Shown one piece after another: positions 6,249 to 56,652 of a stretch of DNA of 64,000 nucleotides. The translations under genes and the position numbers were made by a program. This DNA is from Acidovorax sp. (GTDB lineage Bacteria > Pseudomonadota > Gammaproteobacteria > Burkholderiales > Burkholderiaceae_C): contig NZ_JAPUDY010000051.1 in NCBI RefSeq assembly GCF_027492855.1, positions 62,001 to 126,000 on the forward strand, given 5' to 3'. The stretch's first letter is position 1. Every line of letters begins with the position of its first letter. The notes under the pieces were generated by a model, which saw only the letters and a list, made by a program, of their open reading frames with translations, ran no database searches and was not told the DNA's origin.

Positions 6249-6304
6249 GCTATAAAAACAATAGCTTCTTGCGCTTTATCAATAAGCACTAGAGGCCATT
6301 TTGA
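6249..6304 (+). repeat. 56-base dispersed element, copy A (forward)
   Basis: Intergenic copy between the FecB-like and permease genes. It begins GCTATAAAAACAATAGC, has the core TTGCGCTTTATCAATAAGC and ends AGAGGCCATTTTGA. I use it as the forward reference for the family. It is much richer in A and T than the flanking genes. Confidence 0.75.
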
Positions 6305-6312
6305 TGCATGAA

Positions 6313-7377
6313 TCACCGTACATCCTCCAACAGTGTTGCGGCGGCTGCCAGCGTGAGATCGGTGCCGTAGAACAAGCGGTAGAAGCGTTGCGCGGCCTGC
6401 GACAGGGTTTCCTGCGCGCGCACGGCGGGGTGCGCGGGGTGCAGGCGCGCCAGCAGCCAGTGCACACCAATGAGCCGGTTGACGCCGGGCGGGCCGTCGA
6501 GCCAGCCAAAGGGCAGCACCGGCGCGCAGTGCACGCGGCCGGTCTGCACGGCGCGGATGGCGCGCCACAGCGGATCGCTGCGCACGCGGTGTGCAAACTC
6601 GGGCTCTTGGGTGACGATGACCTCAGGGTTCCAGGCCAGGATCTGCTCCAACGACACGCGCGTGATCGAGCCCTTGCCAGCGGCCGCCGCCACATTACGG
6701 CCACCGGCAAAGTCCAGCAGCTCCACGTTGATGGAGCCGTCCAGCCCGGTCTCCAGCCCGTCGGCGCCGCGCCCGTAGTACACGCCCGGGCGCTGCGCTG
6801 CGGGCACGCTGGCGCGCACCTGCGCGGCCAGGGCGATGGTGGCGTCTGCATACGCGGCCAGGCGCTCGGCATGCTCAGGCACACCCAGCAAGCGGCCTAC
6901 TTCGCGCAGTTGTGCGGCATGTTCGGCCAGGCGGCCCTGCACCAAGAGGGTGGGCAGGCCGGTCTGCTCGCTCACGCGGCGCGCGGCCGAGACATAGGTG
7001 GCATCAGCAGTGCCTGCGTCCAGAATCACGTCGGGCCGCAGTTGCAGCAGCGTCTCGACCGACACCGTGCTGCCCCGCCCGGCCAGGCGGCCCAGAAACG
7101 GCAGCGCACTCGGCACCGGGCCCAACGCCGCGCGTGCGGCTGCGTTCAGTTGCATCGGCCAGCCCAGCAACTTTTCGGGCGCCAACGCGGCCACCAGCAC
7201 CCCGGCGGGGGCACCAGCGGCAAAGACGCGCTGAATGCGCGCAGGTGGCGGCAGCGCGCCAAAGGTGGCGGCGATGGTGGTTGTGGAGGCAACCGCGTTC
7301 TGGGGCGCCTGCGACCGGGCCCAGGCGGGCCACAGCGCGGCGGCAGCGGCGGTTTGCAGCAGTTGGCGGCGTTTCAT
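6313..7377 (-). CDS. Periplasmic substrate-binding protein, FecB/BtuF type
   Basis: The 354-residue protein starts MKRRQLLQTAAAAALWPAWA, a signal sequence with twin arginines that could use the Tat route, although the motif is incomplete. The rest fits the TroA/BtuF-like fold: VSVETLLQLRPDVILDAG, LEQILAWNPEVIVTQEPEFA and RVHCAPVLPFGWLDGPPGVN are family-type segments. It should deliver substrate to the FecCD-type permease encoded next. Its start overlaps the stop of the DUF2478 gene (ATGA). Operon context suggests the cargo is molybdate, tungstate or a chelate of them. Confidence 0.9.
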   Translation of the reverse strand: MKRRQLLQTAAAAALWPAWARSQAPQNAVASTTTIAATFGALPPPARIQRVFAAGAPAGVLVAALAPEKLLGWPMQLNAAARAALGPVPSALPFLGRLAGRGSTVSVETLLQLRPDVILDAGTADATYVSAARRVSEQTGLPTLLVQGRLAEHAAQLREVGRLLGVPEHAERLAAYADATIALAAQVRASVPAAQRPGVYYGRGADGLETGLDGSINVELLDFAGGRNVAAAAGKGSITRVSLEQILAWNPEVIVTQEPEFAHRVRSDPLWRAIRAVQTGRVHCAPVLPFGWLDGPPGVNRLIGVHWLLARLHPAHPAVRAQETLSQAAQRFYRLFYGTDLTLAAAATLLEDVR

Positions 7378-7976
7378 GCCGGGCTTTCCCGTGCTGGCGT
7401 GGTGCTGGCCGTGGGCGCATCTGCCTGCAGTCGATCAAACCAGTCGCACAGTGCCTGCAGGGGCTGCGGCATGGGCAGCTCCTGCCCCAGCGGGCCTGTC
7501 AGCGCACGCCAGGCTGGCAAGTGCGCAGGCGCAACGATGGTCAGCACCGGAATACCCGCTTCCGCCAGGGCGGCGATTTCGGCCACGAAACCGCCGCCCT
7601 GCGCCTCCAGCCCCCCAAAACGATTGATGACCACAGCGTCCACCCGGTCTGCCAGCGCCTGGCGCAGCACGCTGCTGGCCTGCGCCACGCCCGCCGGGTC
7701 GAGGCAGCAAGACCGGGCCTGCGGCCCCAGGTCTTGCGAGATGTCGAAGGCCTGTGCGCTGCGCACGTCCAACAGTTGCATGCGTTTGCCGCCTCGGGGC
7801 CAGGTGGTGAAGTGCTGCCGCAGGCCGCCCACGCGCCAGCCTGCGTGCTGCAGCGCCTGCACCCAGGCGGCTTGCAGCGCGTCAGCGTCGGTGTCGGAAG
7901 AGGTGCTGGCATCGGCCTGCACGATGGCAGCCAGGCGCGCGAATGGCTCTGGCTCGGTCGCAGTGGTGGGGTTCAT
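7374..7976 (-). CDS. DUF2478 domain protein (molybdenum-operon associated)
   Basis: The protein, about 200 residues long, matches DUF2478, a family repeatedly found beside molybdenum transport genes and without a known reaction. Recognisable parts are FARLAAIVQADASTSSDTDA, VGGLRQHF, LDVRSAQAFDISQDLG and VVINRFGGLEAQGGGFVAEI. I chose the ATG ending at 7976 (MNPTTATEPEPF) because it overlaps the stop of the preceding binding-protein gene; a longer reading frame upstream would run inside that gene. The P-loop usual in related NTPases is not obvious here. Confidence 0.8.
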   Translation of the reverse strand: MNPTTATEPEPFARLAAIVQADASTSSDTDADALQAAWVQALQHAGWRVGGLRQHFTTWPRGGKRMQLLDVRSAQAFDISQDLGPQARSCCLDPAGVAQASSVLRQALADRVDAVVINRFGGLEAQGGGFVAEIAALAEAGIPVLTIVAPAHLPAWRALTGPLGQELPMPQPLQALCDWFDRLQADAPTASTTPARESPA

Positions 7977-10898: not shown

Positions 10899-10913
10899 CG
10901 CACCCCTTCCTAT

Positions 10914-10937
10914 CGTTATATACAAAAATACATAGCG
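10914..10937 (-). promoter_or_regulatory. ModE box 1 (Mo-box), proximal
   Basis: Imperfect dyad CGTTATATA, six bases, TACATAGCG (plus strand). The half sites resemble those reported for ModE (TATAACG type). It covers the -10 element and most of the spacer of promoter P1, so bound ModE would block RNA polymerase. Confidence 0.75.
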
Positions 10938-10945
10938 GTCGACAA
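10917..10945 (-). promoter_or_regulatory. Promoter P1 of the TonB/ABC molybdenum operon
   Basis: On the minus strand, -35 TTGTCG (10940-10945) and -10 TATATA (10917-10922) are separated by 17 bases. The start site would fall near 10910, leaving a very short leader that contains the Shine-Dalgarno sequence of the receptor gene. Confidence 0.65.
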
Positions 10946-10975
10946 AAAAAAGCCACGGCGTTCAAAACCCGTGGC
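10944..10975 (-). terminator. Intrinsic terminator between the two ModE-box promoters
   Basis: On the minus strand a perfect 7-bp stem (GCCACGG with CCGTGGC, 10969-10975 with 10952-10958) is followed at once by eight Ts (10944-10951). It ends transcripts coming from the flavoprotein gene and would also stop transcripts begun at promoter P2. Confidence 0.85.
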
Positions 10976-10991
10976 AATACCCCATCGCCAA

Positions 10992-11015
10992 CGCAATATA
11001 CGTAAATATATAACG
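10992..11015 (-). promoter_or_regulatory. ModE box 2 (Mo-box), distal
   Basis: Dyad CGCAATATA, six bases, TATATAACG (plus strand), with the same half-site spacing as box 1 and centred 78 bases upstream of it. It lies just past the end of the flavoprotein gene. Confidence 0.7.
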
Positions 11016-11023: not shown

Positions 11024-11058
11024 CAAACGCCTGTGGCCGAAATTTGCTCTGGATCAAT

Positions 11059-12602: not shown

Positions 12603-15600
12603 TCAAAACAGAGAGCCTTGCGAAGAGTCTTTAGCCCCCGTTGCAGCAGCGGGGGCGAGAGTATGCCCCACGGCGGGAGTCCGGGCAGCCAACGGGCCTA
12701 CCGCACCCGCAGCGGATGCGCCGTCCAGCAGCACCATGCGCCCATCACCCGTGAGAAAGGCCGCGTGCACCGCCTCGCCCGGCATCAGCGCCTGCACGGC
12801 CTCGCGGTAGCGCTGCAACTGCACCATCAGCGCCTGCTGGCGCTGGGGCTGGGCGGCGCTTTTGTAGTCCAGCACCCACCAACCGGCTGCGGCGTCGCCT
12901 GCCTGTGCGGCGCGGCGCAACACCAGCCGGTCGATGCGCAGGCTCTGGCCCTGGTAGTGCAGCGGGGCTTCGTTGATGGCGGTCTGCACCCAGGCCGGGT
13001 CCCACGCCCAGGCGCCCTCGCCCGCCAGGATGCGTTGGGCCATGCGCGCGGCCAACTCGGCGGCGGCGGGGGCGATGTCGTGGTCATGGCCCAAGCGGGT
13101 GATGCGCGCGGCGGGCCAGCCGTGGGCGCGCACATCGGCCAGCGGCGCGCCCGCCACGCCGGCTTGCTCCAGCAGTTGGTGCATGGCGTCGCCCTGGCGC
13201 GACAGCGGGGTAGAGTCGCCATCGCCCGGCATGGCCACCGGGGTCTCGCTACCCACCGGGGCGGCGGCCTGCACGCGGGCGCTTTGCAGGGCCTCGGGCA
13301 GTGGGGGCAACACGGCGATGGTGAAGGTATCGGTGGCGGCGCCCGCGCCATCCACCGACGTCGGCGCGGCAATGGCGGCTGCGTCCACCTCGGTCACCAA
13401 CGGGGCCAGCCGGTTCCACCAACTGCCAGGGGCCGAAGTGCCGGGCTGCACGGACGACAGCGCCAGGCAATGCTTGGCGCGCGTCATGGCCACATAAAGC
13501 ATGTTCAGCTCTTCACGGCTGCGGGCCTGCTGCTCGGCGGCGAGGGCATCCACCGCGCTGGGTGGCGGGTTCGATTCGCTGGCCAAAAAGACGAAGGCCG
13601 AGGGCACGGCCTGCTCGCCGGGCCAATCCACCAGCACGCCCATGGTTTCGGCTTTTTGTGAACGGGTGTCGGTGTCGAGCAACAGCACGCAGTCGGCCTC
13701 CAGCCCCTTGGCGCCGTGCACGGTGAGCAGGCGAATGGCCTGCGCATCGGCCCGGCCAGGCGCACGCACGCCGCCTTTTTTCATGGCCCGCACAAAGGCA
13801 TAGGGCGTGAGGTAACGGCCGCCATCGTGCTGCAGCGATGCCGCCAGCAAAGCGCGCAGATTGGCCAACACGGCCTGGCGCTGGGTGGCGGGCGCGGCGG
13901 CGGCAAAGCGGGCCAGCACATCGCCATGCTCGTAGATGGCCTGCAACGCATCGTGCGGCGGCAGGCTGCCCACCCAGGCCTGGTATTGAGTCAAAACGGG
14001 GCCTAGCGCTTGGTATTCAAGCGCAAGAAGCTCACTTTTTAATAGCAAATCAAACCAACTACGGCCCGCATGCTCGGGCTGGCGGCGCAGCACGGCCAGG
14101 GCCACCAGGGCGTCGTCATCCAGGCCGAACAGGGGCGACTTGAGCGCGCGGGCCAGCGACAGATCGTGTGTGGGCGAGACAAGCGCATCCAGCAGCGCCA
14201 CCATGTCCTGCACCTCGGGCGCGTCGAACAGGTCGGCTTTTTCGGGCTGTACGCAGGGCAGGTGCAGGGCGCGCAGCGCGTCTTGCATGGCGGCCAGGCG
14301 GTCGCGCTTGCGGGCCAGCACCAGCACCTCTTTGGGCGGCGTGCCGCTGGCAATCTGCGCGGCCACCCAGGCGGCGGCCTGGGTGCATTCGCGCATGCGC
14401 AGGGTTTCCTCGGCCTCGTGGCGAGGCTCGGTCAGGCTGTCGCGCCAAGCCAGCGGGTCGCGGCCTGTGCCTTGGCTGTTGTCGTCCGCATCGGTGATGG
14501 CGGGCAGGCGCAGCAGCTGGCCGGGGTGCTTGGATTCTGTGGTGTGGTCGCGAAAGCCGCTGGTCTCGTGCTGCGCCTGGGCCTCGCCCATCACGGCGTT
14601 GACTGCGCCAATCACGCCCTGCGCGTTGCGGCGCGTGTGATCGCAGCTGAGCAGGTCGCCGCCCAGGCCATCGCGCACAAAGGCCTGCGCGGCAATGAAC
14701 ACCTGCGGCTCAGCACGGCGAAAGCGGTAAATGCTCTGCTTGGGGTCGCCCACAATGAACACGCTGGGCGCCTTTTGCCCGCTGTTACCGCCGCCCGCGC
14801 CCGCGTAGCCCGACAGCCAGGCATGCAGCGCCTGCCACTGCAGCGGGTTGGTGTCCTGGAACTCATCGACCAGCAGGTGGCGAATGCGCGCATCCAGCCG
14901 CTCCTGCACCCAGCCGGAGAGCACCGGGTCGGCCAGCATGACCAGGGCGGTGCGCTCCACATCGTTCATGTCCACCCAGCCATGCTGCTGCTTGACGCCC
15001 ACAAACTGCGCCATCAGGCAGCGCGCCAGCCGGGCCATGCGCTGTTGGTGTTGCCAGGCCTCGTGCTGGCGGCGGGCGGTGAGCAGGCGCAACAGCTCGG
15101 GCTCGGCCTCTTGTGCGGCGGGGAACTTCTCCAGGTTTTTCGACAGGCGGTCTTCCTTGGCCACAAACAGCGCTTTGCGCAGCATGTCGAGCCGCTGGTT
15201 CAGGTCGGTGCAGGTCAAGGCGTCGATGATGGCGTCGGCCGCCTTTTGCGGGGTCTTGTTGGTCTCAGCGCCCAGGGCGCTGGCGCGGCTGCGCCAGCGC
15301 TGCTGGCAGGCATCGCTTTGCAAGGCCTCAGCAGGCTCGCCAAAAGCAGCCAACTCAGGGTAGGCCTGCTGGAACGGCGGCACCGAGGCATCGACCACAC
15401 CCGCTTCGTCGGCCAGGTCAAACTCCACGCGCTTGGCCAGCGCCGCTGCCAGGGCCTTGTGGGTTTGCGAACGGCCGTGGCGGGCCACCACGGCTTCGTA
15501 GTCAGAGCGCAGGCTGGCGCTGTCGGCCACGGTCTGCAAAAACGGCGGCCAAACCTCGCGCACGGCCTCGGCGTCGTCTTCGAGCAGCTCGAAGTGCGCG

Positions 15601-16061
15601 GGCAGGCCTTGCTGTTGCAACAGCGCCAGTGGCGCCGTGCCCAGCAGCGCGGCAAACCAGCTGTGAAAGGTGCGGATCTGTACCGGGCGGCCCGCGGTGA
15701 GCAGCTGGCGGTATAAATTTTGTAGCGCCTCGCGCTTATCCGACGCGCCCTGGGGGCTGATTCCCCTTGCAATCAGCTCGGCAGTGAGTTCCTCCAGCGG
15801 CTTGTGGCTGAATTCTTCCAGCCACTCCTGCAAACGCTGGCGCATTTCACCGGCGGCTTTTTTGGTGAAGGTGATGGCCAGGATCTCGTGCGGCGCGCAG
15901 CCGTCGAGCAGCGCACGCAGCATGCGCGAAACCAGCATCCAGGTCTTGCCCGCACCCGCGCAGGCTTCGACGGCCACGCTGCGCGCAGGGTCGCAGGCGA
16001 TGGCGTAGAAGGCCTCGCGCGAGACGGGGCGGCCGTTGTGTTCGTAGGCGGCCTGTTTCAT
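12603..16061 (-). CDS. addA: UvrD-type helicase/exonuclease, AddA-like
   Basis: Double-strand break processing helicase-nuclease of about 1,152 residues. Helicase motif I is ACAGAGKT (residues 33-40), motif Ia ILAITFTKKAAGEMRQRL, motif II LLVDEFQDTNPLQW, motif III-type VFIVGDPKQSIYRFRRA, motif V LLTVHGAKGLEADCVLLLD and motif VI LYVAMTRAKHCLAL. The C-terminus carries a RecB-family nuclease domain (RIDRLV and WWVLDYKS). I chose ATG 16061 (MKQAAYEHNGRP); the longer frame to 16112 reads through a dispersed repeat. The 56-base repeat copy B lies at about residues 672-690. It should form a complex with the AddB-like product encoded just upstream. Confidence 0.9.
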   Translation of the reverse strand: MKQAAYEHNGRPVSREAFYAIACDPARSVAVEACAGAGKTWMLVSRMLRALLDGCAPHEILAITFTKKAAGEMRQRLQEWLEEFSHKPLEELTAELIARGISPQGASDKREALQNLYRQLLTAGRPVQIRTFHSWFAALLGTAPLALLQQQGLPAHFELLEDDAEAVREVWPPFLQTVADSASLRSDYEAVVARHGRSQTHKALAAALAKRVEFDLADEAGVVDASVPPFQQAYPELAAFGEPAEALQSDACQQRWRSRASALGAETNKTPQKAADAIIDALTCTDLNQRLDMLRKALFVAKEDRLSKNLEKFPAAQEAEPELLRLLTARRQHEAWQHQQRMARLARCLMAQFVGVKQQHGWVDMNDVERTALVMLADPVLSGWVQERLDARIRHLLVDEFQDTNPLQWQALHAWLSGYAGAGGGNSGQKAPSVFIVGDPKQSIYRFRRAEPQVFIAAQAFVRDGLGGDLLSCDHTRRNAQGVIGAVNAVMGEAQAQHETSGFRDHTTESKHPGQLLRLPAITDADDNSQGTGRDPLAWRDSLTEPRHEAEETLRMRECTQAAAWVAAQIASGTPPKEVLVLARKRDRLAAMQDALRALHLPCVQPEKADLFDAPEVQDMVALLDALVSPTHDLSLARALKSPLFGLDDDALVALAVLRRQPEHAGRSWFDLLLKSELLALEYQALGPVLTQYQAWVGSLPPHDALQAIYEHGDVLARFAAAAPATQRQAVLANLRALLAASLQHDGGRYLTPYAFVRAMKKGGVRAPGRADAQAIRLLTVHGAKGLEADCVLLLDTDTRSQKAETMGVLVDWPGEQAVPSAFVFLASESNPPPSAVDALAAEQQARSREELNMLYVAMTRAKHCLALSSVQPGTSAPGSWWNRLAPLVTEVDAAAIAAPTSVDGAGAATDTFTIAVLPPLPEALQSARVQAAAPVGSETPVAMPGDGDSTPLSRQGDAMHQLLEQAGVAGAPLADVRAHGWPAARITRLGHDHDIAPAAAELAARMAQRILAGEGAWAWDPAWVQTAINEAPLHYQGQSLRIDRLVLRRAAQAGDAAAGWWVLDYKSAAQPQRQQALMVQLQRYREAVQALMPGEAVHAAFLTGDGRMVLLDGASAAGAVGPLAARTPAVGHTLAPAAATGAKDSSQGSLF
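13991..14046 (-). repeat. 56-base dispersed element, copy B (within addA)
   Basis: Reverse orientation on the plus strand, so it reads in the sense direction of addA. The coding strand begins GCTATTAAAAAGTGAGC and contains TTGCGCTT and AAGCGCTAGGCC. Its first base is a third codon position (2,015 bases after the gene start). It encodes LLKSELLALEYQALGPVL. Confidence 0.75.
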
Positions 16062-21145: not shown

Positions 21146-22846
21146 GTGACCCCACCCACCCCCGCCATCGTTACCCAGAATGCCGTGAAGCCCCTCCCCC
21201 GCTGGGCGCGGTTGCTGCTGTGCATTGCCTACGTGGTACCAGGCTTCGTCGGGCGTGACCCTTGGAAGAGCGCCGACGTCACGGCCTTTGGCTACATGCT
21301 GGAGCTGGCCCAGGGCCGCACCCCGTGGCTCGCCCCCCTGCTGGGCGGCATGCCACCGGAGACCGAGGGCCTGCTGCCCTACTGGATCGGGGCGTGGGCC
21401 ATGCAGATCGCACCGCCCTGGCTGCCAGCCGAAGTGGCGGCGCGCATTCCTTTTGCGGGCCTGCTGGCCCTCACGCTCATTGCCACCTGGTATGGGGTGT
21501 ACTACCTGGCACGCAGCCCCGGCGCCCAACCCGTGGCGTTTGCGTTTGGCGGCGAGGCCCCGCCCCTGGACTACGCCCGCGCCATCGCCGACGGCGCGTT
21601 GCTGGCGTTGATCGCCTGCCTGGGCCTCGCACAACTTTCGCACGAGATCACCAGCTATCTGGTGCAGCTCAGTTGCACCGCACTGCTCTTCTTCGCGGTG
21701 GCCGCCATGCCGCACCGCACCGTGGCACCCGCCCTGGCGCTGGTTGCCGGCATGCTCGGACTGACACTGGCAGGAGCCCCGGCGCTGACCGCCTTGCTGG
21801 GCGCGGGCAGCATGGTGCTGGTGGTGCTGGCCCCTGGTGGCCGTGCCGACCGCCGATGGCACTGGGCGCTGGCGCTGATGGCCGTGACGCTGGCAGCCGC
21901 CTGGCTGGCCTGGGCGCTGGACCTGTGGCGCTGGCGCATTGTGGGCGCCGGTGCGGGTGGCAAGGAATGGCAAAGCCTGGTGCGCCTGCTGATATGGTTT
22001 GGCTGGCCCGCCTGGCCGCTGGCGTTGTGGACGCTGTGGCGCTGGCGCAAGCAGATCATCAGCCGCCAGGGCCACCGGCACCTGCTGGTGCCGCTGTGGT
22101 TCGTGGCCGTGTCCATCGCCGCCACCATCACCACGCAGCCCGCCGACCGGGCCTTGCTGCTGAGCCTGCCTGCCATGGCCTCGCTGGCGGCCTTTGCGCT
22201 GCCCACCCTGCGCCGCAGCGTGGGCGCACTGATCGACTGGTTCACCCTGCTGTTCTTCACCGTGTCCGCACTGGCGATCTGGGTGATCTGGATTGCCATG
22301 CAAACCGGCGTGCCCGCCAAACCTGCGGCCAATGTGGCCAAGCTCGCGCCGGGGTTTGAGCCCCAGTTTTCAGCCCTGGCGCTGGTGGCGGCCCTGGCCG
22401 CCACCGTGGGCTGGTGCAGCCTGGTCTGGTGGCGCGCATCGCGCGACCGTGCGCCCATCTGGAAAAGCCTGGTGCTGCCCGCCGGGGGCGCCGTGCTGGG
22501 CTGGGTGCTGCTGATGACGCTGTGGCTACCGCTGCTGGACTATGCGCGCAGCTATGGCCCCCAGGTGCGCAGCGTTGTGGAGGCCCTTGGCCCCACGCCG
22601 GGATGCATCCAGACCGTGGGGCTCAACCGCGCCCAGGTGGCCGCCTTGCAATACCACGGCCAGCTCTCGCTGCAGCGCGCCGGCTTGCAGGATGAGTGCG
22701 AGTGGCTGCTGGCGGACATTGCTTCGTGGCCTGCCTCCGAGCGCATGGTCAATGCCGCGCGGTGGGAGCCCAAGGCCACCCTGCCCCGCCCGACGGACAA
22801 GAACGACCACCTCCTGCTGTTCCGCCGCACAGGCCCGGCACGCTGA
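21146..22846 (+). CDS. ArnT-like membrane glycosyltransferase family protein (putative)
   Basis: The 566-residue integral membrane protein has roughly ten or more hydrophobic segments. The N-terminal region after the first segment (FVGRDPWKSADVTAFGYMLE) has the extracytoplasmic DPW/DE-type loop seen in lipid-linked glycosyltransferases of the ArnT/PMT superfamily. A smaller soluble domain closes the C-terminus (about 470-566). The sugar and acceptor are unknown. The start is GTG 21146. The MATE gene follows with a one-base stop/start overlap (TGATG), so the two are translationally coupled. A role in surface polysaccharide or lipid modification is an inference. Confidence 0.65.
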   Translation: MTPPTPAIVTQNAVKPLPRWARLLLCIAYVVPGFVGRDPWKSADVTAFGYMLELAQGRTPWLAPLLGGMPPETEGLLPYWIGAWAMQIAPPWLPAEVAARIPFAGLLALTLIATWYGVYYLARSPGAQPVAFAFGGEAPPLDYARAIADGALLALIACLGLAQLSHEITSYLVQLSCTALLFFAVAAMPHRTVAPALALVAGMLGLTLAGAPALTALLGAGSMVLVVLAPGGRADRRWHWALALMAVTLAAAWLAWALDLWRWRIVGAGAGGKEWQSLVRLLIWFGWPAWPLALWTLWRWRKQIISRQGHRHLLVPLWFVAVSIAATITTQPADRALLLSLPAMASLAAFALPTLRRSVGALIDWFTLLFFTVSALAIWVIWIAMQTGVPAKPAANVAKLAPGFEPQFSALALVAALAATVGWCSLVWWRASRDRAPIWKSLVLPAGGAVLGWVLLMTLWLPLLDYARSYGPQVRSVVEALGPTPGCIQTVGLNRAQVAALQYHGQLSLQRAGLQDECEWLLADIASWPASERMVNAARWEPKATLPRPTDKNDHLLLFRRTGPAR

Positions 22847-24213
22847 TGTCGGAGCAATCCACCATCACCCGGCATGCACTCACCGTGCTGGCCGGGCAAC
22901 TGGCCGTCATGGCGTTCGGCGTGACGGACACCATCGTCGCGGGCCGCTACAGCGAATCCTCGCTCGCCGCGCTGTCCGTGGGCTCGGCCATTTTCATCAG
23001 CGTCTATGTGGCGCTGATCGGTGTGCTGCAGGCGCTGCTGCCCGTGTGGGCCGAGCAGCGCGGCGCGCGTGAGACCGAAGCCGTTGGCCGGTCACTGCGC
23101 CAAGCCCTGTATCTGTGTGGCGCGGCCTCGCTGATCGGCATGGCAGTCTTGTTGTCCCCCGGCCCCATCCTGCGCTGGACCGAGGTGCCGCCCGCCCTGC
23201 GCACCGAGGTGGAAAACTACCTGGCGGTGCTGGCGTTGGCGCTGCCCCCGGCCCTGCTGTTTCGCATCTACAGCACCCTGAACCAGGCCCTGGGACGGCC
23301 CCAGTTGGTGACTTGGCTGCAGGTGGGCTCGCTGTTCATCAAGCTGCCGCTGTCGGTGTGGTTCACGTTTGGTGGTGCGGGCCTGCCCGCGCAGGGCGTG
23401 GTGGGCTGCGCCTGGGCCACACTGGTGGTCAACTGCAGCATGCTTGCACTGGCCATCTGGCTGCTGCGCACGCAAGACCTTTACGAACCCCTGGGCCTGT
23501 GGCGCCGCATGGAGCCGCCGCACTGGCCCACCATCGCGGGTTTTGCGCGGCTGGGTATTCCGGCGGGGCTGGCCGTGATGGTCGAGGTGACATCGTTCAC
23601 GCTGATGGCGCTGTTCATTGCGCGCCAGGGCACCACCGCCTCTGCAGCCCACCAGATCGCCTCCAACCTGGCCGCCGTGCTCTACATGGTGCCGCTGTCG
23701 CTGGCCATCGCCACCAGCGCGCGGGTCAGCTACTGGCTGGGCGCAGGCAACCCCGTGCAGGCCCGCCAGGTGGTATTTATAGGTTTTAGGCTCTCAGCGC
23801 TTATGGGATTTGCGCTAGCAGCTATATTATTAATAGCAAAAGATCACATTGGCAGTATTTACACGGCCAACGCCAGCGTGGTGGCAATGACAGGGGGCGT
23901 GCTGGTGTGGGTGGCTGCGTACCACGCGGCCGATGCGCTGCATACCCTGTGCGTGTTCGTGCTGCGCTGCTACCGCATCACACTGGCCCCGCTGGCCGTG
24001 TACTGCGCTTTGTTGTGGGGCGCGGGCCTGGGCGGCGGCTATTGGCTGGCCTACACCGGCCACGGCCCCTGGGCGGGGGTGCCATCGCCCACACCGCTCT
24101 GGGCTGCCAGCGCCGCTGCGCTGGTGGTGACGGCTGCGCTGTTTGTCGCCATGCTCTGGCGAGCCATCAGCCCGGCAGGGCAAAACCGCGCAGCCGGTTC
24201 GCCGGGAAGGTAA
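22846..24213 (+). CDS. MATE family efflux transporter
   Basis: The 455-residue, about 12-segment membrane exporter fits the MATE family (sodium- or proton-coupled drug/metabolite export). Characteristic pieces are AGQLAVMAFGVTDTIVAGRY, AALSVGSAIFISVYVALIG and AAHQIASNLAAVLYMVPLSL. Start ATG 22846 overlaps the upstream stop. Copy C of the 56-base repeat lies at residues 313-331 and forms part of a membrane segment. The 3' end overlaps the convergent phoR gene by 47 bases. Confidence 0.92.
   Translation: MSEQSTITRHALTVLAGQLAVMAFGVTDTIVAGRYSESSLAALSVGSAIFISVYVALIGVLQALLPVWAEQRGARETEAVGRSLRQALYLCGAASLIGMAVLLSPGPILRWTEVPPALRTEVENYLAVLALALPPALLFRIYSTLNQALGRPQLVTWLQVGSLFIKLPLSVWFTFGGAGLPAQGVVGCAWATLVVNCSMLALAIWLLRTQDLYEPLGLWRRMEPPHWPTIAGFARLGIPAGLAVMVEVTSFTLMALFIARQGTTASAAHQIASNLAAVLYMVPLSLAIATSARVSYWLGAGNPVQARQVVFIGFRLSALMGFALAAILLIAKDHIGSIYTANASVVAMTGGVLVWVAAYHAADALHTLCVFVLRCYRITLAPLAVYCALLWGAGLGGGYWLAYTGHGPWAGVPSPTPLWAASAAALVVTAALFVAMLWRAISPAGQNRAAGSPGR
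23782..23837 (-). repeat. 56-base dispersed element, copy C (within the MATE gene)
   Basis: Reverse orientation and antisense to the element's forward strand. It begins GGTTTTAGGCTCTCAGCGCT and ends GCTATATTATTAATAGC. It starts exactly at a codon boundary (936 bases after the gene start) and encodes GFRLSALMGFALAAILLIA. It is visibly A/T-rich inside a GC-rich gene. Confidence 0.78.
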
Positions 24214-27013: not shown

Positions 27014-27039
27014 TGGGTGTACAACCTCACGGTTATGAA

Positions 27040-27095
27040 TCAAATCTGGCTCCAGCGCTTATTTATCAAGCACAAGCAGCTATCAATAACATAGC
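27040..27095 (-). repeat. 56-base dispersed element, copy D (pstB-phoU gap)
   Basis: Reverse orientation. It begins TCAAATCTGGCTCCAGCGCT, contains ATTTATCAAGCACAAGCAGC and ends ATAACATAGC. It fills most of the 92-base gap between pstB and phoU. Confidence 0.75.
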
Positions 27096-27105
27096 AATCA
27101 ACCGA

Positions 27106-39547: not shown

Positions 39548-39664
39548 CACCCAATTGCGGCACCACCTCCTGCGTGATATTTCCTCAGCCGGGACACAAG
39601 GTGACGCTGCTACAATTTGGTACAAATTTTGAGGCCATCTGGCCCACCGCCCGTACTGGTTTCT

Positions 39665-41890
39665 ATGCCTCCGCCGTACAGCGCTCCGGAACTGCAGCGT
39701 CCTGGAGTTGCCCACGATACCCCCCTGCAACGCACACTGCGCGAACAACAAATCCTGCTCGACAACGCAGGCGTTGGTATTGTTTTTTTGCGCCAGCGCA
39801 GCGTGGTCCGCTGCAATCAGCGGTACGCAGAAATCTTTGGCTACACCACCCCCGCACGCCTGATAGGGCTCAACACCGAAGCCTTCTATCCCAATCGCGA
39901 CGCATTCAGGGATCTGGGCCGCGCGGCCTATCCCGTGCTGGTACAGGGGCAGTCGTTCCGCGTGGAACGCCAATTGCGCCGCTGCGATGGCACCCTTTTC
40001 TGGGGAAACCTCACGGGGCGGCTCATCAACCCGCACGACACCGCCGAGGGCTCCATCTGGATCCTGGATGACATCGACGAGCAAAAGCGCGCCCAGGCTG
40101 CCTTGGGTGCGGCGGTACGCGAAAAGCAGTTGTTGTTCGACAACGCCATGGTCGGCATCGTTTTTCTGCGCGACCGCCACATGACCCGATGCAACGGGCA
40201 CTTCGAGCAGATGCTCGGTTTTCAGCCCGGCGAACTCATGGGCAGCTCGTCACGCCGGTGGTATACCTCCGACGCAGCCTGGGAAGAGGTAGGCCGCCGC
40301 TGCTACCCGCACCTGGCCGCCGGGCAAACCTACGAAGGCGAAGTGGAACTGTGCCGCAAAGATGGCACGCCCGTGATCTGCGAAGTGCGCAGCAAGCCCA
40401 TCGACCCTGCCGATCCTTCCCAGGGGTCCATCTGGATCACGATGGACATCACGGATCGCAAGCACGCCCAGGCCATGCTCGCTCTTGCGCATGAAGAGCT
40501 GGAACAGCAGGTGCAGGACCGCACCCGTGAACTGCGCGAGACGGTGGACAACCTGCACCGTGAGATCAACGACCGCAAAGCCGACCAGGAACGCATCTAC
40601 TGGCTGGCCCACTACGACGCACTCACCGGCCTGCCCAACCGCACACTGCTGGCCGAGCGGGCCCTGCAGGCCATTCGGGTAGCTCAAGAGAACAACACGC
40701 CGCTGGCCGTGATCTTTCTGGACCTGGACCACTTCAAGCAAGTGAACGACTCTCTGGGACACCGTGTGGGCGATGCACTGCTGATCGAGATCGCCAAGCG
40801 GCTGCGTGCGGTAGTGCGCGACAGGGACACCGTATCGCGCCTCGGTGGCGATGAGTTCATTTTGGTGCTGCCTGGCGCCAACGCGCATGGAGCCGCCCGT
40901 GTGGCGGGAAAGCTGCAGGAAGCGTCGCGCCAGCATTACCAGATCAATCACCACGAGCTGACCATGGCTCCATCCATGGGGATTGCTCTGTTTCCGCAAG
41001 ACGGCACCGATTTCGACACGCTCACCCAGTCGGCGGACGTGGCCATGTACCGCGCCAAACTCGATGGCCGCAACACCTTCCGGTTCTTCACCCCCGAAAT
41101 GCAGGCCCAGTCGGTACGCGCTTTGCAGCTTGAAAACGCGTTGCGCCGAGCGCTGGAGCGCGACCAGCTTCGGCTGCACTATCAGCCCCAGATGAGCCTG
41201 ACCACAGGCACCGTGCGCAGCGTGGAGGCACTGCTTCGCTGGCAGCACCCGGAGCTGGGCAACATCTCACCCGCAGAATTCATCCCCATCGCAGAAGACA
41301 GCGGGCAGATTCTGCAGATTGGCGAGTGGGTGCTGCGCACCGCATTGGCGCAGCTCAAGGCCTGGCGGACCGGGGGGTTTCCAGAGCTCTCGATGGCGGT
41401 GAACCTCTCCGCCATCCAGTTTCGCCAGCCCCGGTTGCCCGAACTCGTGAGCCGCATATTAGCGGAATTTGACCTGCCCCCCGACTCGCTGGAGCTGGAG
41501 CTCACCGAAGGCGTGGCCGTGGACGACCCGCATGCCGCCGTGGCCACCATGGATCAACTGCACGCGCGGGGCGTTCGGATGTCGATGGACGACTTTGGCA
41601 CCGGCTACTCGTCGCTGAGCCAGCTCAAACGATTCCAGATCTTCAAGCTCAAGATCGACCAGTCTTTCGTACGCGATCTAGGAAACGACAATAACGACCG
41701 CGCCATCGTGAGCGCCATCATCCGCATGGCGCAGGCGCTGGGCATCCGCACCACGGCCGAAGGGGTTGAAACGGAAGACCAACGGGCCTTCCTGCACTCC
41801 CAAGGATGCGATGAAGCCCAGGGCTACCACTTCAGCACGCCGTTGCCGGCGGCTGAGGCGGAAGCCTTTATGCGCCAGCACCTCGGCTAA
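39665..41890 (+). CDS. PAS-PAS-GGDEF-EAL cyclic-di-GMP protein
   Basis: Soluble protein of 741 residues with two PAS domains (each beginning REQQILLDNAGVGIVFLR or REKQLLFDNAMVGIVFLR, so apparently duplicated), a short coiled linker, GGDEF (RLGGDEF) and EAL (VEALLRWQHPELG, ELELTEGVAVDD, DDFGTGYSSLSQLKRF, AEGVETEDQ). The RxxD inhibitory site is present (RDRD before TVSRL). It is closely related to the upstream gene through the GGDEF-EAL part, which indicates tandem duplication. ATG 39665 is chosen; TTG 39617 is open too. It converges on glmM 15 bases away. Confidence 0.92.
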   Translation: MPPPYSAPELQRPGVAHDTPLQRTLREQQILLDNAGVGIVFLRQRSVVRCNQRYAEIFGYTTPARLIGLNTEAFYPNRDAFRDLGRAAYPVLVQGQSFRVERQLRRCDGTLFWGNLTGRLINPHDTAEGSIWILDDIDEQKRAQAALGAAVREKQLLFDNAMVGIVFLRDRHMTRCNGHFEQMLGFQPGELMGSSSRRWYTSDAAWEEVGRRCYPHLAAGQTYEGEVELCRKDGTPVICEVRSKPIDPADPSQGSIWITMDITDRKHAQAMLALAHEELEQQVQDRTRELRETVDNLHREINDRKADQERIYWLAHYDALTGLPNRTLLAERALQAIRVAQENNTPLAVIFLDLDHFKQVNDSLGHRVGDALLIEIAKRLRAVVRDRDTVSRLGGDEFILVLPGANAHGAARVAGKLQEASRQHYQINHHELTMAPSMGIALFPQDGTDFDTLTQSADVAMYRAKLDGRNTFRFFTPEMQAQSVRALQLENALRRALERDQLRLHYQPQMSLTTGTVRSVEALLRWQHPELGNISPAEFIPIAEDSGQILQIGEWVLRTALAQLKAWRTGGFPELSMAVNLSAIQFRQPRLPELVSRILAEFDLPPDSLELELTEGVAVDDPHAAVATMDQLHARGVRMSMDDFGTGYSSLSQLKRFQIFKLKIDQSFVRDLGNDNNDRAIVSAIIRMAQALGIRTTAEGVETEDQRAFLHSQGCDEAQGYHFSTPLPAAEAEAFMRQHLG

Positions 41891-43337: not shown

Positions 43338-44168
43338 TCAGCCAGCCCGCTGCATGGCCGACCATACCGCCAGCGCCGCCACCGTCTCTTTCACATCGTG
43401 CACACGCACCACCGATGCGCCCCGCTCCACCGCCAGAACAGCGGCGGCCACGCTGGGCACCATGCGCTGCTCCACATCCCACCCCGTCACAGCACCCAAA
43501 GACGACTTGCGCGACCAGCCCGCCAGCAACGGGTAACCCGCAGCCAGCAAGGTGCCCTGCCGGGCCAGCAGGGCAAAGTTCTGCTCCACCGTCTTGCCAA
43601 AACCAATCCCAGGGTCCAGAACAATTCGATTCTTTTGAGCCCCTAGCGCAAGCAGATCAAGCGCCTGCAGCTCTAAAAATGATAGCACCTGTGACACAAC
43701 ATCACCCTCCATGGGAGCGAGTTGCATGGTCTGCGGGTCACGGTGCATATGCATCAGGCACACCCCACATTGCGGGTGTGCGGCCACCACGTCCAACGCG
43801 CCAGGCTGCCGCAAGGCCCAAATGTCGTTGATGATGTCCGCACCCAAATCAAGCACGGCCTGCATCACGGCGGGCTTGTAGGTGTCCACGGAAATCGGTG
43901 CGCCCAAAGCCACGGCTTCGCGCACCAGCGGGACGACACGGGCCAGTTCTTCATCCAGCGGCACGGCCGGACTGCCAGGCCGGGTGGACTCTCCCCCGAT
44001 ATCCAGGATATCGGCCCCCTCTTTGAGAAGCTGCTCACAGTGCCGCAGGGCCGCCACGGTGGAGCCATGGCGGCCACCATCTGAAAAGGAGTCAGGGGTG
44101 GCGTTGACGATGCCCATGACCTGGGGCCGTTCAAGGTCAATGGAGAAACGGGAGGTCTGCCAGATCAT
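43338..44168 (-). CDS. folP: Dihydropteroate synthase
   Basis: Folate-pathway enzyme joining p-aminobenzoate to the pterin pyrophosphate; the sulfonamide target. The 276-residue protein shows [49 protein letters not shown] and [23 protein letters not shown] 44168 (MIWQTSRFS) is chosen over ATG 44210. Copy E of the 56-base repeat encodes about residues 161-180, just before the IVLDPG motif, apparently without lengthening the protein relative to my memory of the family. Confidence 0.96.
43631..43686 (-). repeat. 56-base dispersed element, copy E (within folP)
   Basis: Reverse on the plus strand, hence in the sense direction of folP. The coding strand begins GCTATCATTTTTAGAGC and contains GGCGCTTGATCTGCTTGCGC. 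Its first base is a third codon position (482 bases after the gene start), the same phase as copy B. It encodes [18 protein letters not shown]. Confidence 0.75.
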
Positions 44169-48357: not shown

Positions 48358-48828
48358 TCAGGCGCTGCCCGAGGAGCTCTCTACAGGGATGGAAGCCGCG
48401 TCGTGGCGCAGGGTCTGCCAGAACACGGCCAAAGCGCAGCACCATTGCAGTGCATACATCACTGTCCCCACGCTATGCCACAGGCGCAGGTCTTGCCGGG
48501 CCACGATGCGGGGCGCCACGCCAAACTGGTTGAGCAGCGCCAACAACATGCCACCCAGTATAAAAACCATAGCAGCCTGCGCCCATGGATACTGCGCTAC
48601 GGCATGTTTTGGCCTGGATATCAAAAGCAGCACCAGGCAACAGGCCACGGCCACCCAGGTTTGGGCGGCAAACAACTTGGCGGCCATGTTGCCTGCGATC
48701 GTGGGAGACGGCAGGTTGGCAAACAGCAGAGGCACCACCAGAAAGCCGATCGTGGTCAAGCTGACCCACCAGAGGGCGGCGACCAGAGCGGGAAGACGGT
48801 GACGCATGCCTTGCACGGTGGCGCTCAC
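48358..48828 (-). CDS. DUF4149 membrane protein
   Basis: Small membrane protein of 156 residues with four hydrophobic segments (about 12-38, 55-72, 83-102 and 120-140). The N-terminal [20 protein letters not shown] fits the DUF4149 family. Function is unknown. It overlaps the end of greA by 4 bases, so it is translated with greA. Copy H of the 56-base repeat encodes residues 73-91, including the start of a membrane segment. Confidence 0.75.
48557..48612 (+). repeat. 56-base dispersed element, copy H (within the DUF4149 gene)
   Basis: Forward orientation, antisense to the gene. It begins AGTATAAAAACCATAGC, contains CCTGCGC and CTGCGCTA, and ends GTTTTGG. On the coding strand it begins at a codon boundary (216 bases after the gene start) and encodes [18 protein letters not shown]. 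It is more diverged than the other copies. Confidence 0.6.
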
Positions 48829-49301: not shown

Positions 49302-49327
49302 GTTTTCAGTCTCCATAGGTCAACAAG

Positions 49328-49476: not shown

Positions 49477-52742
<3,266 letters not shown>

Positions 52743-52743
<1 letters not shown>

Positions 52744-53906: not shown

Positions 53907-54101
53907 TGGGTTCTCCGGATGGTTACGGTCGCCCGGCGCCTGCAGGCCACTCGCACACAAAAGTGCGGTCGTGCCAGTGGCTGCTCTCAGATGGGTTGTT
54001 GCTTTGGGTGCGGTCGGGCGACGCTGTTGCGAGAAAAGCTCCCGATTATACCCTCGCCCTTCACCCCGCCGGCATTGCGGGCCATTGTGTTCAGAGCGGG
54101 C

Positions 54102-54875
54102 TCAACGGGCCGCGCCGCTCGTGTGCAAACAGATCGCCGCAGCCGCTGCCACGTTCAGCGACTCCTCCCCACCCGGCTGGGCGACGCGGATGCGCAAGGC
54201 CGCCTGGGCCTCCAAGGCGGGCGATACGCCCTGCCCTTCATGCCCCAAAACCCAGGCGCAAGGCCAGGGCAAGGCGGCGCGGTGCAGGTAGTCGCCCGCG
54301 TGCGAGCTGGTCACCAAAAGGGGCACTTGCAGCGACTCAACATCAGAAAGCCCCACGCCCTCGATCAGATCCAGCGCGAAATGCGCCCCCATACCAGCCC
54401 GCAGGACCTTGGGTGACCACAGCGCGGCGCTGCCCTTGACGGCCACCACCTGCCGAAACCCGAACGCCGAGGCGCTGCGCAGGATGGAGCCCACGTTGCC
54501 CGCATCCTGCACCCGGTCGAGCACCACGGTTGCCGCGTCAGGCTGCAAGGCGGCAGGCGCAGGCAGGTCGAGGATGAAACCCATGCGCGCCGGGGATTCC
54601 AGCCCGCTGATGTCGGCAAACAGTGCATCGGCAAGCACTATTGTTTTGATAGCTGCTTGCGCATATTCCACTTGCGCCAGGGGCCAAAAAGACTCTGAAA
54701 ATACGGCCACCGTCGCCCGCAGCCCCCGGGCCAGCGCGGCGCGGCACAGGTGGTCGCCCTCCAGCCACACACGGCCCTGCTTGCGGTAGGCCGTGGTGTC
54801 CTGGGCCAAGCGCCGCAAATCCTTGACGAAGGCGTTGTCGCGGGAGTGGATGGCGATGACGGACGAAGAGGTCAT
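54102..54875 (-). CDS. TrmH/SpoU-family RNA 2'-O-methyltransferase
   Basis: The 257-residue SPOUT methyltransferase has an N-terminal substrate-binding domain (about 1-95) and the knotted catalytic domain with three family motifs: VVLDRVQDAGNVGSILRSA, PCAWVLGHEGQGVS and ESLNVAAAAAICL. It probably methylates a ribose in rRNA or tRNA; the target is not deducible. Copy F of the 56-base repeat encodes residues 62-80 of the substrate-binding domain. It lies 21 bases after rnhB at the end of the envelope operon. Confidence 0.88.
   Translation of the reverse strand: MTSSSVIAIHSRDNAFVKDLRRLAQDTTAYRKQGRVWLEGDHLCRAALARGLRATVAVFSESFWPLAQVEYAQAAIKTIVLADALFADISGLESPARMGFILDLPAPAALQPDAATVVLDRVQDAGNVGSILRSASAFGFRQVVAVKGSAALWSPKVLRAGMGAHFALDLIEGVGLSDVESLQVPLLVTSSHAGDYLHRAALPWPCAWVLGHEGQGVSPALEAQAALRIRVAQPGGEESLNVAAAAAICLHTSGAAR
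54637..54692 (+). repeat. 56-base dispersed element, copy F (within the TrmH-type gene)
   Basis: Forward orientation, antisense to the gene. It begins ACTATTGTTTTGATAGC, contains TGCTTGCGC and TTGCGCCAGGGGCC and ends AAAAAGA. On the coding strand it begins at a codon boundary (183 bases after the gene start) and encodes SFWPLAQVEYAQAAIKTIV. Confidence 0.78.
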
Positions 54876-54896
54876 GAAAAGTCTCGCGGCAGGCTG

Positions 54897-55523
54897 TCAG
54901 GCACGCAGGTTCTGGGCCACAGGGGCAAACGAGCGCCGGTGATGGATGCAGGCGCCATGCTCGCGCAGGGCCGCCATGTGCACGGCCGTGCCGTAGCCCT
55001 TGTGCCCCGCAAAGCCGTACTGCGGAAACTCGTCGTGCACCTGCTCGCACCAGCGGTCGCGGTGCACCTTGGCCAGGATGGAAGCCGCCGAAATAGCGGG
55101 CACCAGCGCATCGCCCTTGACGATGGCCTCGGCCGGTACGTCCAGCAACGGCAGCCGGTTGCCATCCACCAGCACCATGACGGGCTTGAGCCGCAGGCCC
55201 AGCACGGCGCGGCGCATGGCCAGCAGGGTGGCCTGCAGGATGTTGAGGCGGTCGATTTCTTCCACGCTGGCCTCGGCAATGCTGCAGCACAGCGCCTTGG
55301 CGCGGATCTCGTCGTACAGCTTTTCGCGGCGCGCCGGGGTGAGCTTCTTGGAGTCGGCAAGGCCCGCAATCGGGTGCAGGTCATTCAGGATGACGGCGGC
55401 GGCCACCACCGGCCCCGCCAGGGGGCCCCGGCCAGCCTCATCCACACCGGCGACCAGGCCGGGCGGGTGCCATGGCAGGCAGGCCTGCTCAGGCGGCAGC
55501 GGAGAGGATTTTCTGGATCGCAT
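54897..55523 (-). CDS. rnhB: Ribonuclease HII
   Basis: Removes RNA from RNA-DNA hybrids and misinserted ribonucleotides. The 208-residue protein has the metal-binding D and E in [20 protein letters not shown], a further aspartate in [11 protein letters not shown] and the region [14 protein letters not shown], as in RNase HII. Its first 35 bases overlap the 3' end of lpxB. The lpxB-rnhB order is shared with E. coli. Confidence 0.96.
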
Positions 55524-56652
55524 CGGCAGCCAGTTGAGGGGTATTGCGCAGCAGGCTTTGGTGCAGCGCCGTAAAGCGTTGCTCCAGGGCCGTGATTTTT
55601 TCAGGATGGTTGCGCCTGGCGTCCAGCCACTCCAAGGTGGCCGCGCACAGCGCCTGCGGCGTGGCGGCGTTCTGGATCAATTCGGGCACCACGAACTCGC
55701 GGCACAAGATGTTGGGCAGCCCCACCCAGGGCTGCAATTGCTTGCGGCGCATGAGCCACCAGCTCAAGGGATGCATGTGGTAGCCGATCACCATGGGGCG
55801 CTTGAACAGCGCGGCTTCGAGCGTGGCGGTGCCGCTGGCGATCAACGTGGCATCGCAGGCAGCCAGCACGGTATGCGACTGCCCGTCAATGATCTGCACC
55901 GCTTCTCCCAAGCCAGAGGCCTGCGCCGCCTGCACGATGCGGTCCCGCAAGGCTGGCACGGCAGGCACTATCAATTTAATAGCTGGTCGCGCTTGTCGAA
56001 TAAGCGCAGCAGCCTCAAAAAAGGGTCGAGCGATGTATTCGATTTCGGATGACCGGCTGCCCGGCAGGATGGCCAGCACCTCGTCCGAATCCTGCAGCCC
56101 AAGCTGGGCCCGGGCCACGGAGCGGTCGGGCACCATCGGAATCACCCCCGCCAGGGGATGGCCCACGTAGGTGGCCGCTATGCCGTGCTGCGCCAGCAAC
56201 TCGGGCTCGAACGGGAAAATGCACAGCACATGGTCTGCGCTGCGGCGGATTTTCTCAACCCGGTCTGCGCGCCAGGCCCAGATGGACGGGCATACGAAGT
56301 GCACCGTCTTGATGCCCGCCGCCCGCAAATCGGCCTCCAGCCCCAGGTTGAAGTCGGGCGCATCCACGCCGATGAAAACGTCAGGGCGGTCTTGGAGCAA
56401 GCGCTCGCGCAGTTGCTTGCGAATGCCCAGCAGCTCGCGCAAGCGGCGCAGCACCTCCATGCTGTAGCCATGCACCGCCAGCTTGTCGCTGGGCCACCAG
56501 GCGGCAAAGCCTCGGCGCGCCATCTGCGGGCCACCGATCCCTGAGGATTGCAGGCCCGGCCAATGGGCCTGCATGCCGTCGATCAGCAGGCCGGCGAGCA
56601 AATCGCCCGAAGTCTCGCCCGCCACCATGGCGACGCGGGGGGATGTATTCAT
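55489..56652 (-). CDS. lpxB: Lipid-A-disaccharide synthase
   Basis: Joins UDP-diacylglucosamine and lipid X in lipid A synthesis at the inner-membrane surface. The 387-residue GT19 protein begins with [20 protein letters not shown] and shows [29 protein letters not shown] and [20 protein letters not shown]. Copy G of the 56-base repeat encodes residues 211-229 ([10 protein letters not shown]...), between [15 protein letters not shown] and the VPAVPALRD strand. It lies 9 bases after lpxA. Confidence 0.98.
55967..56022 (+). repeat. 56-base dispersed element, copy G (within lpxB)
   Basis: Forward orientation, antisense to lpxB. It begins ACTATCAATTTAATAGC, contains GCGCTTGTCGAATAAGCGC (a perfect central hairpin) and ends CCTCAAAAAA. 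On the coding strand it begins at a codon boundary (630 bases after the gene start) and encodes [19 protein letters not shown]. Confidence 0.78.

Follow-up and report, generated by a model that had tools for sequence, protein, structure and literature searches.

Copies of a DNA element of about 66 bp are scattered over the 64-kb stretch of an Acidovorax genome analyzed here (the window), both within and between genes. The element combines a common frame with a central address that varies by lineage, and at lpxB and folP it overlays existing sequence rather than being inserted. Very probably, it is a DNA signal read by a protein, and neither a mobile element nor an RNA. We lean toward regarding it as a new class of genome-wide DNA code: a nucleoprotein site, rigid and 66 bp long, in which the frame is common to lineages while an address of about 26 bp is particular to each, the spelling having changed in place at many loci, conserved genes among them. 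Such a site would be either the longest known uptake or self-recognition signal or a chromosome-organizing code with dialects, read by a putative co-evolving protein (or protein with a guide).

Copies, abundance, and architecture of the element

The initial annotation described eight copies of a 56-base repeat. All eight are present at the coordinates it gave, form one family, and align without gaps over those 56 bases, but the unit is longer, with conservation spanning about 66 columns. A search profile built from 464 kb of the same Acidovorax genome recovers all of them and adds a weak ninth. Two of the eight are intergenic, as had been noted: one at 6247..6312 (plus strand, profile score 87.8), filling the gap between two minus-strand genes, and one at 27032..27097 (minus strand, 86.0). 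Both placements, like the gene positions that follow, come from a simple gene caller of our own, which predicted 749 genes at 84% coding density. The other six lie in genes whose earlier names are upheld by Pfam: 13983..14048 (minus, 69.2) in an addA-like UvrD helicase gene (12603-16061, minus; UvrD-helicase), 23774..23839 (minus, 67.8) in a MATE gene (22846-24213, plus; MatE), 43623..43688 (minus, 58.9) in folP (43338-44168, minus; Pterin_bind), a weak copy at 48555..48620 (plus, 33.3) in a DUF4149 gene (48358-48828, minus; DUF4149), 54635..54700 (plus, 64.1) in a TrmH/SpoU methylase gene (54102-54875, minus; SpoU_methylase), and 55965..56030 (plus, 45.8) in lpxB (55489-56652, minus; LpxB). 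The ninth copy, at 15708..15773 (plus, 37.1), falls in the same addA-like gene. As first observed, the copies are mostly A/T-rich within GC-rich genes.

The element is present in about 700 copies in this genome, approximately one per 6 kb, is gapless, carries about 66 bits of information, and occurs in both orientations. At a profile score of at least 22, we found 139 copies in 861 kb and one match in the reversed sequence. The core ATAGCN5GCGC has 487 matches in the 4.64-Mb genome versus 33 for the pattern read backwards. A codon-shuffled control had been proposed as a check; in the one form of it that was run, 33 in-gene matches at a score of at least 30 compare with 4, 2, 3, 0, and 3 after each of five rounds of shuffling synonymous codons, which rules out chance origin from codon use. 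A known RNA family was also rejected, as an Rfam search of the window at gathering scores returned only the SRP RNA and no match on the repeat. No named equivalent was found in the literature among the matches listed, in agreement with the initial annotation, and a literature search with sequence strings of the repeat found no paper.

Three parts can be distinguished: a left box GCTAT-(A/T)7-ATAGC, the central address, and a right box that terminates in GGCC-n-(A or T)4. The left and right halves keep a single spacing in 106 of 106 pairs, and the A/T tracts are about 44 bp apart. Strong covariation is confined to neighboring columns, each tract being either an A-tract or a T-tract with the TpA step nearly absent; stem pairs are absent from the 45 pairs that covary most strongly. 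The consensus has no terminal inverted repeat and no GTAG tag at either end. Because the median pairwise identity of copies equals the simulated value (0.54 in both cases), with few pairs more alike than simulated, the copies resemble independent draws from one profile. The central GCGCTT...AAGCGC dyad, pointed out earlier as a shared feature, can pair in the Acidovorax dialect, but the palindrome is not essential: the center is non-palindromic in several other lineages (G113, G031, G035, G064, and G042).

Orientations are equal overall (69 plus and 70 minus among the 139 copies). Among gaps of at least 50 bp (a few element-bearing gaps are shorter), the element occupies 34 of 60 convergent and 3 of 95 divergent ones; thus, convergent gaps are enriched and promoters are avoided. 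Intragenic copies are oriented with the host gene in 15 cases and against it in 24 (p=0.20), the two orientations number 27 and 31 in co-directional gaps, and spacing between copies is near random (CV 0.84 and 1.02). Strand counts within single contigs are uneven, with 17 and 31 in C8 (p=0.06) and 22 and 16 in C51 (p=0.42). The complete chromosome of G015 has 178 places, 90 forward and 88 reverse, and no strand or position bias along it was established from the 100 places listed. A single query copy gave one match to plasmids and none to phages.

Overlay on existing sequence at lpxB and folP

The lpxB site aligns gap-free in all 80 named relatives, whether the motif is present or absent. The proteins are also gap-free across the element in comparison with solved structures, LpxB with 5w8n, which we take to be the E. 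coli protein, and FolP with 2y5j, presumably the Burkholderia protein; among the intragenic copies of the window, the gap-free outgroup comparison covers these two genes. Rickettsia palindromic elements are insertions that add a peptide and lengthen the protein, whereas the Acidovorax element is length-neutral at both loci. Thus, the likeness to them suggested in the initial annotation fails.

At lpxB, the motif arises through synonymous codon choice. GC3 inside the element is 0.41 versus 0.79 in the rest of the gene in 40 site-positive genomes, and 0.79 versus 0.80 in 29 site-negative ones; this classing, which excludes 11 of the 80 loci with intermediate scores, is partly circular. Core matches were also counted genome-wide in 49 of the 80 named genomes, two intermediate ones being kept apart. 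By this count, GC3 inside and outside the element is 0.48 and 0.80 in 24 motif-rich genomes and 0.75 and 0.83 in 23 motif-poor ones (p=4e-5). The refuting condition proposed earlier, the same bases in orthologues from relatives that lack other copies, was checked at lpxB. Of the 23 genomes in which core matches number below 100, 17 have no marked GC3 drop at this place and six do; where core matches reach 150 or more, 19 of 24 genomes have the drop. A different dialect may be in use in some of the low-core genomes.

Positions are conserved as well. In syntenic loci of 20 Acidovorax genomes, sampled from 47 in the genus, all 62 matches fall on the same four sites, base-exact. An orthologous copy is found in all 20 loci for the TrmH/SpoU gene, in 17 for lpxB, in 16 for folP (one of the remaining four is unaligned there), and, above threshold, in nine for the DUF4149 gene. 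Thus, four window sites hold their exact position genus-wide, and the lpxB site, compared further in the 80 named relatives and 30 additional genomes, holds it across genera.

Dialects of the element in the family

The outer box was found in 117 of 399 family genomes, with 10-317 copies in each (the number of genomes is a hand count from tables); for G003 and some G031 stretches, which were picked around known frame matches, the densities and the strength of the left box are overestimated. The outer parts are common to lineages, while the central 26 bp or so are lineage-specific. The copies in G042 are sharp, 34 in 176 kb. Outside the family, the Acidovorax-type core was scanned in 291 of 300 genomes, and the largest excess was 97 matches versus 47 in the control, in G350; other dialects could escape this core.

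The lpxB site is spelled in the local dialect in most of the genomes that were compared. Its sequence scores highest under the genome's own center type in 9 of 13 genomes, with G003 and G072 judged by type and G592 and G585 by congener. The four misfits are G543, G064, G020, and G042, the comparison for the last two lacking a profile of their own. Scores under the G099 profile, built from nine copies, are low: 14.6 versus 12.8 for G099 and 4.3 versus -4.2 for G585.

Function of the element and its alternatives

We give about even chances to a role in DNA uptake, that is, in self-recognition during natural transformation, with an unusually long signal. A sequence-specific protein machine would read the double-stranded signal of about 66 bp, and the A/T tracts may bend the DNA at the receptor. 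Copies would be maintained by molecular drive, because signal-bearing DNA would be preferentially taken up and recombined; on the best reading, the signal is kept by selection or molecular drive. The gap-free overlay, the synonymous-site bias at lpxB, the base-exact positions, the single spacing, the covariation of neighboring columns, and the dialects all count in favor of uptake. In addition, Acidovorax temperans and A. facilis have 496 and 471 core matches, and both are naturally transformable according to the sections of the study drawn on here (PMC4212676). Several observations point the other way. In the same sections, A. facilis DNA did not transform A. temperans, although the two appear to use one dialect at lpxB, and A. 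delafieldii gave no transformants, although the motif is present in its 2.4-Mb genome, with 132 core matches. They also describe selective uptake in Verminephrobacter eiseniae, whereas in V. aporrectodeae the count of the Acidovorax core lies close to background (36 versus 25; a core count, not a frame count). The motif-rich Comamonas jiangduensis (252) and Rhodoferax sp. BP02 (168) have no motif at lpxB, and a non-systematic search found no receptor or reading protein.

ComEC, considered as a competence marker that might track the motif, shows no significant association with it: with partial matches counted as present, it is matched in 114 of the 117 genomes with at least ten frame copies (also a hand count) and in 267 of the 282 others (p=0.30). 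G704, with four copies, no ComEC match, and 840 contigs, has congeners with 68-121 copies, but this case is offset by G563 and G703, which have ComEC and one and two copies, compared with 206-294 in congeners. G042 carries the motif without a PF03772 match, though rated 100% complete.

Known dispersed signals resemble the element in part. The uptake signal sequence (USS) of Pasteurellaceae consists of a GC core and A/T tracts whose helical register is fixed, and is dispersed in coding DNA without insertion. The Acidovorax element likewise has a core and A/T tracts in register, but the USS is shorter (about 30 bp with flanks), has few variants, and is not known to be related in sequence. HIP1 of cyanobacteria, a highly iterated palindrome of debated function, is also found inside and between genes, but it has 8 bp and no frame-plus-address structure. 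DNA uptake sequences (DUS) are 10-12 bp long with a core of about 9-12 bp; the Acidovorax element, at about 66 bp and 66 bits, is several times longer, which counts against its putative uptake role. Both occur in excess throughout the genome and within genes as well, and at lpxB and folP the Acidovorax element does so without having been inserted. The portions of the Neisseriaceae study used here describe DUS with many copies in genes and gaps, permissive intergenic regions, terminator association, lineage variants around conserved positions, and absence from some family members; the quoted genomes have thousands of copies (PMC3630211), compared with hundreds of the Acidovorax element. The dialects of the Acidovorax element around invariant positions and the respelling of its lpxB site parallel the behavior of DUS dialects, and its enrichment in convergent gaps is likewise comparable. 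The BRE of Bordetella and other Betaproteobacteria, including Comamonadaceae, is described in the consulted parts of its report as 75-91 bp long, 69% GC, often tandem, with at most 29 copies per genome and some copies in coding sequence (PMC3110155). In contrast, the Acidovorax element is A/T-rich, dispersed, and present in hundreds of copies, and identity with BRE was rejected because the two differ in GC content, in layout, and in number of copies, a comparison of descriptions rather than of letters.

A short palindrome of the MITE, REP/RAYT, or RPE-like kind that spread as a mobile element by transposition and whose old copies have decayed is very improbable. High copy number, dispersal, a majority of intergenic copies, and a weak association with Y1_Tnp (matched in 31 of 35 motif-bearing genomes and in 57 of the 85 others, p=0.02) would fit it, but four motif-bearing genomes have no such match, one site is spelled lineage-specifically, and the consensus ends and copy identities described above argue against it. 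The gap-free orthologues and base-exact syntenic positions led us to reject insertion. REP/BIME, RAYT, and GTAG/CGTC repeats are presented in the cited extracts as short, dispersed near gene ends with some inside ORFs, and as hairpins thought to be mobilized by transposases (PMC3733652). The element differs in being length-neutral in the orthologues tested, and in having no end GTAG, no hairpin covariation, and no stem conserved between dialects, some of which are non-palindromic. Slightly less probable still is an RNA hairpin read in transcripts as a terminator, processing site, or regulator. Pairing in the Acidovorax dialect and enrichment in convergent gaps are compatible with it, but the lack of stem covariation, the non-palindromic centers, the absence of a significant orientation preference relative to genes, and the Rfam result oppose it, and it was rejected on the first three.

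The main rival to DNA uptake is a binding site for a chromosome-organizing or DNA-topology protein (a nucleoid-associated protein, a ParB/Noc-like protein, a condensin loader, or a topoisomerase) that would wrap or bend about 66 bp at some 700 landmarks per genome. It is possible, though the less likely of the two. The near-dyad core of the Acidovorax dialect, the A/T tracts in rigid register, equal orientations, the contrast between convergent and divergent gaps, and the sharp motif of G042 without ComEC all suit such a site. Near-random spacing does not, nor does the varying center on a constant frame, since the hundreds of sites of a functional code would be expected to keep their spelling, and the non-systematic search found no candidate protein. 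We consider a self-mark for DNA repair or defense (Chi-like or a protection signal), read inside the cell as self versus foreign, unlikely. Lineage-specific spelling, near-equal orientations, and the single plasmid match with no phage match agree with it, but Chi-type signals are short, and the strict 66-bp register with its A/T-tract rule would rather indicate a wrapped double-stranded complex.

To our knowledge, most known examples of dispersed signals that overlie coding sequence are uptake sequences, which are short. With a 66-bp counterpart whose frame is shared and whose center switches, found in a large family of environmental bacteria, two questions become directly testable: how recognition sites by the hundred can change in step with the reader, and whether uptake biased by sequence is able to overwrite coding DNA across a genome. 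The lpxB site, with natural gain, loss, and respelling, is a ready-made experiment. It also carries a warning, as codon choice in such genes may reflect a DNA code and not translation alone.

Build, abundance and placement of the element

The initial annotation described eight 56-base repeats in the window and likened them to palindromic elements within Rickettsia genes. All eight copies are present in the window sequence, and a profile search adds a ninth, weak one (window 15708-15773). The oriented profile, trained on 464 kb of the source genome (G000), converges on a gapless unit of ~66 bp with the consensus tTGCTATnAAaTTgATAGCTGCTaGCGCTTgttnAacAAGCGCTAGaGgCcnaTTTnactcaaAa. At a score of at least 22, it finds 139 copies in 861 kb and one in the reversed sequence; the core ATAGCN5GCGC has 229 + 258 matches genome-wide versus 15 + 18 for the backward-read pattern. 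The density of one copy per 6.2 kb extrapolates to ~700 per genome. The in-gene excess also withstood shuffling of synonymous codons, with 33 real matches at a score of at least 30 versus 4, 2, 3, 0, and 3 in five shuffles.

In the Acidovorax spelling, the element carries ~66 bits of information (left box, 26; centre, 27; right box, 13). Left and right halves pair at a single spacing: all 106 pairs are at offset zero, none was found at offsets of 1-25 bases in either direction, and for 25 of the 131 left halves no partner exceeds the threshold. Among 205 copies from six genomes, strong covariation joins adjacent or near columns and chiefly reflects the choice of an A-tract or a T-tract; the TpA step is almost absent in the tracts (columns 39-40 are TT in 153 and AA in 41 of the 205), and none of the 45 strongest covarying pairs is a putative stem partner pair. 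Median pairwise identity is 0.54, both observed and simulated, with a few pairs reaching 0.82 versus 0.72 in simulation. The copies thus resemble independent draws from the profile, and these identities show no sign of recent bursts.

Our own gene calls place 39 of the 139 copies inside genes and 5 at edges; of those in gaps, 34 are in convergent, 58 in co-directional, and 3 in divergent ones. Relative to the number of gaps of at least 50 bp, this amounts to 34 copies for 60 convergent gaps, 58 for 292 co-directional gaps, and 3 for 95 divergent gaps (convergent versus divergent, p=1e-14). Orientation relative to the host gene shows no significant preference (in-gene copies: 15 same, 24 opposite, p=0.20). 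One copy (contig C8, 102796-102861) lies within the source genome's match to ComEC, a marker of competence (C8:102485-103285, locus L014). Two elements on contig C51 (loci L028 and L027, ~19.2 and ~22.8 kb) have near-identical left flanks (GCAGAAGGCCTTGCCCTCTGCG...), possibly because the element was copied together with a duplicated gene end. The window also contains a bacterial small SRP RNA (RF00169; 836-932, + strand, 59.9 bits) and, at 38224-41787, two neighbouring stretches that recur 2361 bases apart (79% over 300 nt, 78% over 85 nt, 75% over 57 nt) and are probably tandem-duplicated genes.

Patchy distribution and lineage-specific spelling

Among 300 genomes of the order, 9 of them family members, the Acidovorax-type core is in strong excess only in its own family, where it is patchy. 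In 49 named genomes, it is abundant in A. facilis (471), A. temperans (496), Simplicispira metamorpha (599), Diaphorobacter nitroreducens (507), and Polaromonas sp. OV174 (320), and near control in Paracidovorax citrulli (35), Hydrogenophaga palleronii (9), and Polaromonas sp. JS666 (50). The outer box GCTATN7ATAGC, or frame, detects more carriers: 35 of 120 genomes have 13-317 copies and the other 85 have 0-7, and by hand count 117 of 399 have at least 10. The sole plasmid match with one query was on the 365-kb plasmid of Acidovorax sp. DW039 (NZ_AP029020.1, 206527-206577; 82% over 51 bases). In genome G015, the 4.32-Mb contig C1 has 20 Y1 transposase domain (Y1_Tnp) matches, several equal-scoring and some in two pieces, far above its relatives; this looks like an active IS200/IS605-type family.

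Five genomes (G031, G035, G064, G099, and G020) have few Acidovorax-type cores yet are rich in frames, because their centres are spelled differently. G042 has 41 frame copies with another centre, and G113 has the core pattern with a different centre. After ATAGC, the centre reads TgcTaGCGCTTgntnaacAAGCGCTAGaggCc in Acidovorax, TGCTCCCGCGATATTCTATTGGgCTgnaGgC in G064, AcTTtGCGCAGantctAtGCCGGCgAtngGCc in G113, and TGCTTGAGCAgTattTnCaTGGGCtgnngGC in G035. Neither the 66-bp motif nor a named equivalent was among the matches listed in the open-access literature, sequence strings included.

Fixed sites overlaid on codons

In 20 syntenic Acidovorax loci, all 62 matches fall, to the base, on four covered window positions: those in the TrmH gene (20/20 loci), lpxB (17/20), folP (16/20), and the DUF4149 gene (9/20). 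LpxB aligns without gaps over the element to 5w8n, as does FolP to 2y5j, and the lpxB site is gap-free in 80 of 80 named relatives, with profile scores from +64 to -68. In 40 site-positive genomes, GC3 falls from 0.79 in the rest of lpxB to 0.41 within the element, versus 0.80 and 0.79 in 29 site-negative ones, a partly circular comparison, as sites were classed by score. When genomes are classed by genome-wide core count, the contrast holds (p=4e-5): GC3 is 0.48 in the element and 0.80 in the rest of lpxB in 24 genomes with at least 150 matches (19 drop by >0.2), versus 0.75 and 0.83 in 23 genomes with <100 (6 drop by >0.2). Therefore, the motif at lpxB is overlaid on the genetic code through synonymous choice. 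Comamonas jiangduensis (252) and Rhodoferax sp. BP02 (168) are motif-rich genomes that lack it there.

The lpxB site scores highest under the genome's own, a congener's, or a same-type profile in 9 of 13 genomes (G000 with G003 and G072 of its type, G113, G592, G031, G035, G099 narrowly, and G585 weakly), where the G000 profile (137 copies) includes G000's own lpxB copy and the others rest on 9-35 copies. It is not best under the own type in G543, G064, G020, and G042. Motif-free congeners (G563, G703, G681, and G704) have ordinary GC-rich codons at this site.

Candidate roles of the element

Taken together, these observations are strong evidence against a mobile palindrome and leave an RNA hairpin very unlikely. 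They suggest instead that a protein reads the element as a double-stranded DNA signal in strict helical register. Since Y1 transposases are somewhat commoner in motif-bearing genomes (31/35 versus 57/85, p=0.02), a transposase role retains a low probability. The main rival to uptake as the function is a chromosome-architecture site. If each site serves a needed function, it is difficult for many of them to change spelling in place; under drive of the signal, such a change is expected, as for the dialects of the Neisseriaceae DNA uptake sequences (PMC3630211).

Several observations weigh against an uptake signal: the length of the motif, the failure to find a receptor, and the sharp motif of G042, a genome without a ComEC match. 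Also against it, a ComEC match is not significantly associated with the motif (114/117 motif genomes versus 267/282 others, p=0.30). The transformation experiments described in PMC4212676 count against it too: transfer from A. facilis to A. temperans failed although the two appear to share one dialect, and the motif-bearing A. delafieldii gave no transformants. In G003, the ComEC match (C1:1836740-1837544) is in three pieces in different frames, and the motif is weaker than in G000 (centre, 15 bits; right, 5 bits), its centre and right part being weaker than in other carriers of the dialect; its density is also below that of G000, at one copy per 9.1 kb in sequence that was in part selected for matches. 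This pattern would be compatible with motif decay once competence was lost, but it is a single case. PMC4212676 also describes natural transformation in A. temperans and A. facilis, with A. temperans transformants obtained only with own-species DNA. Given this transformability and the respelling expected under drive, the reading we favour, at roughly an even chance, is that the motif serves as an uptake or self-recognition signal maintained by drive.
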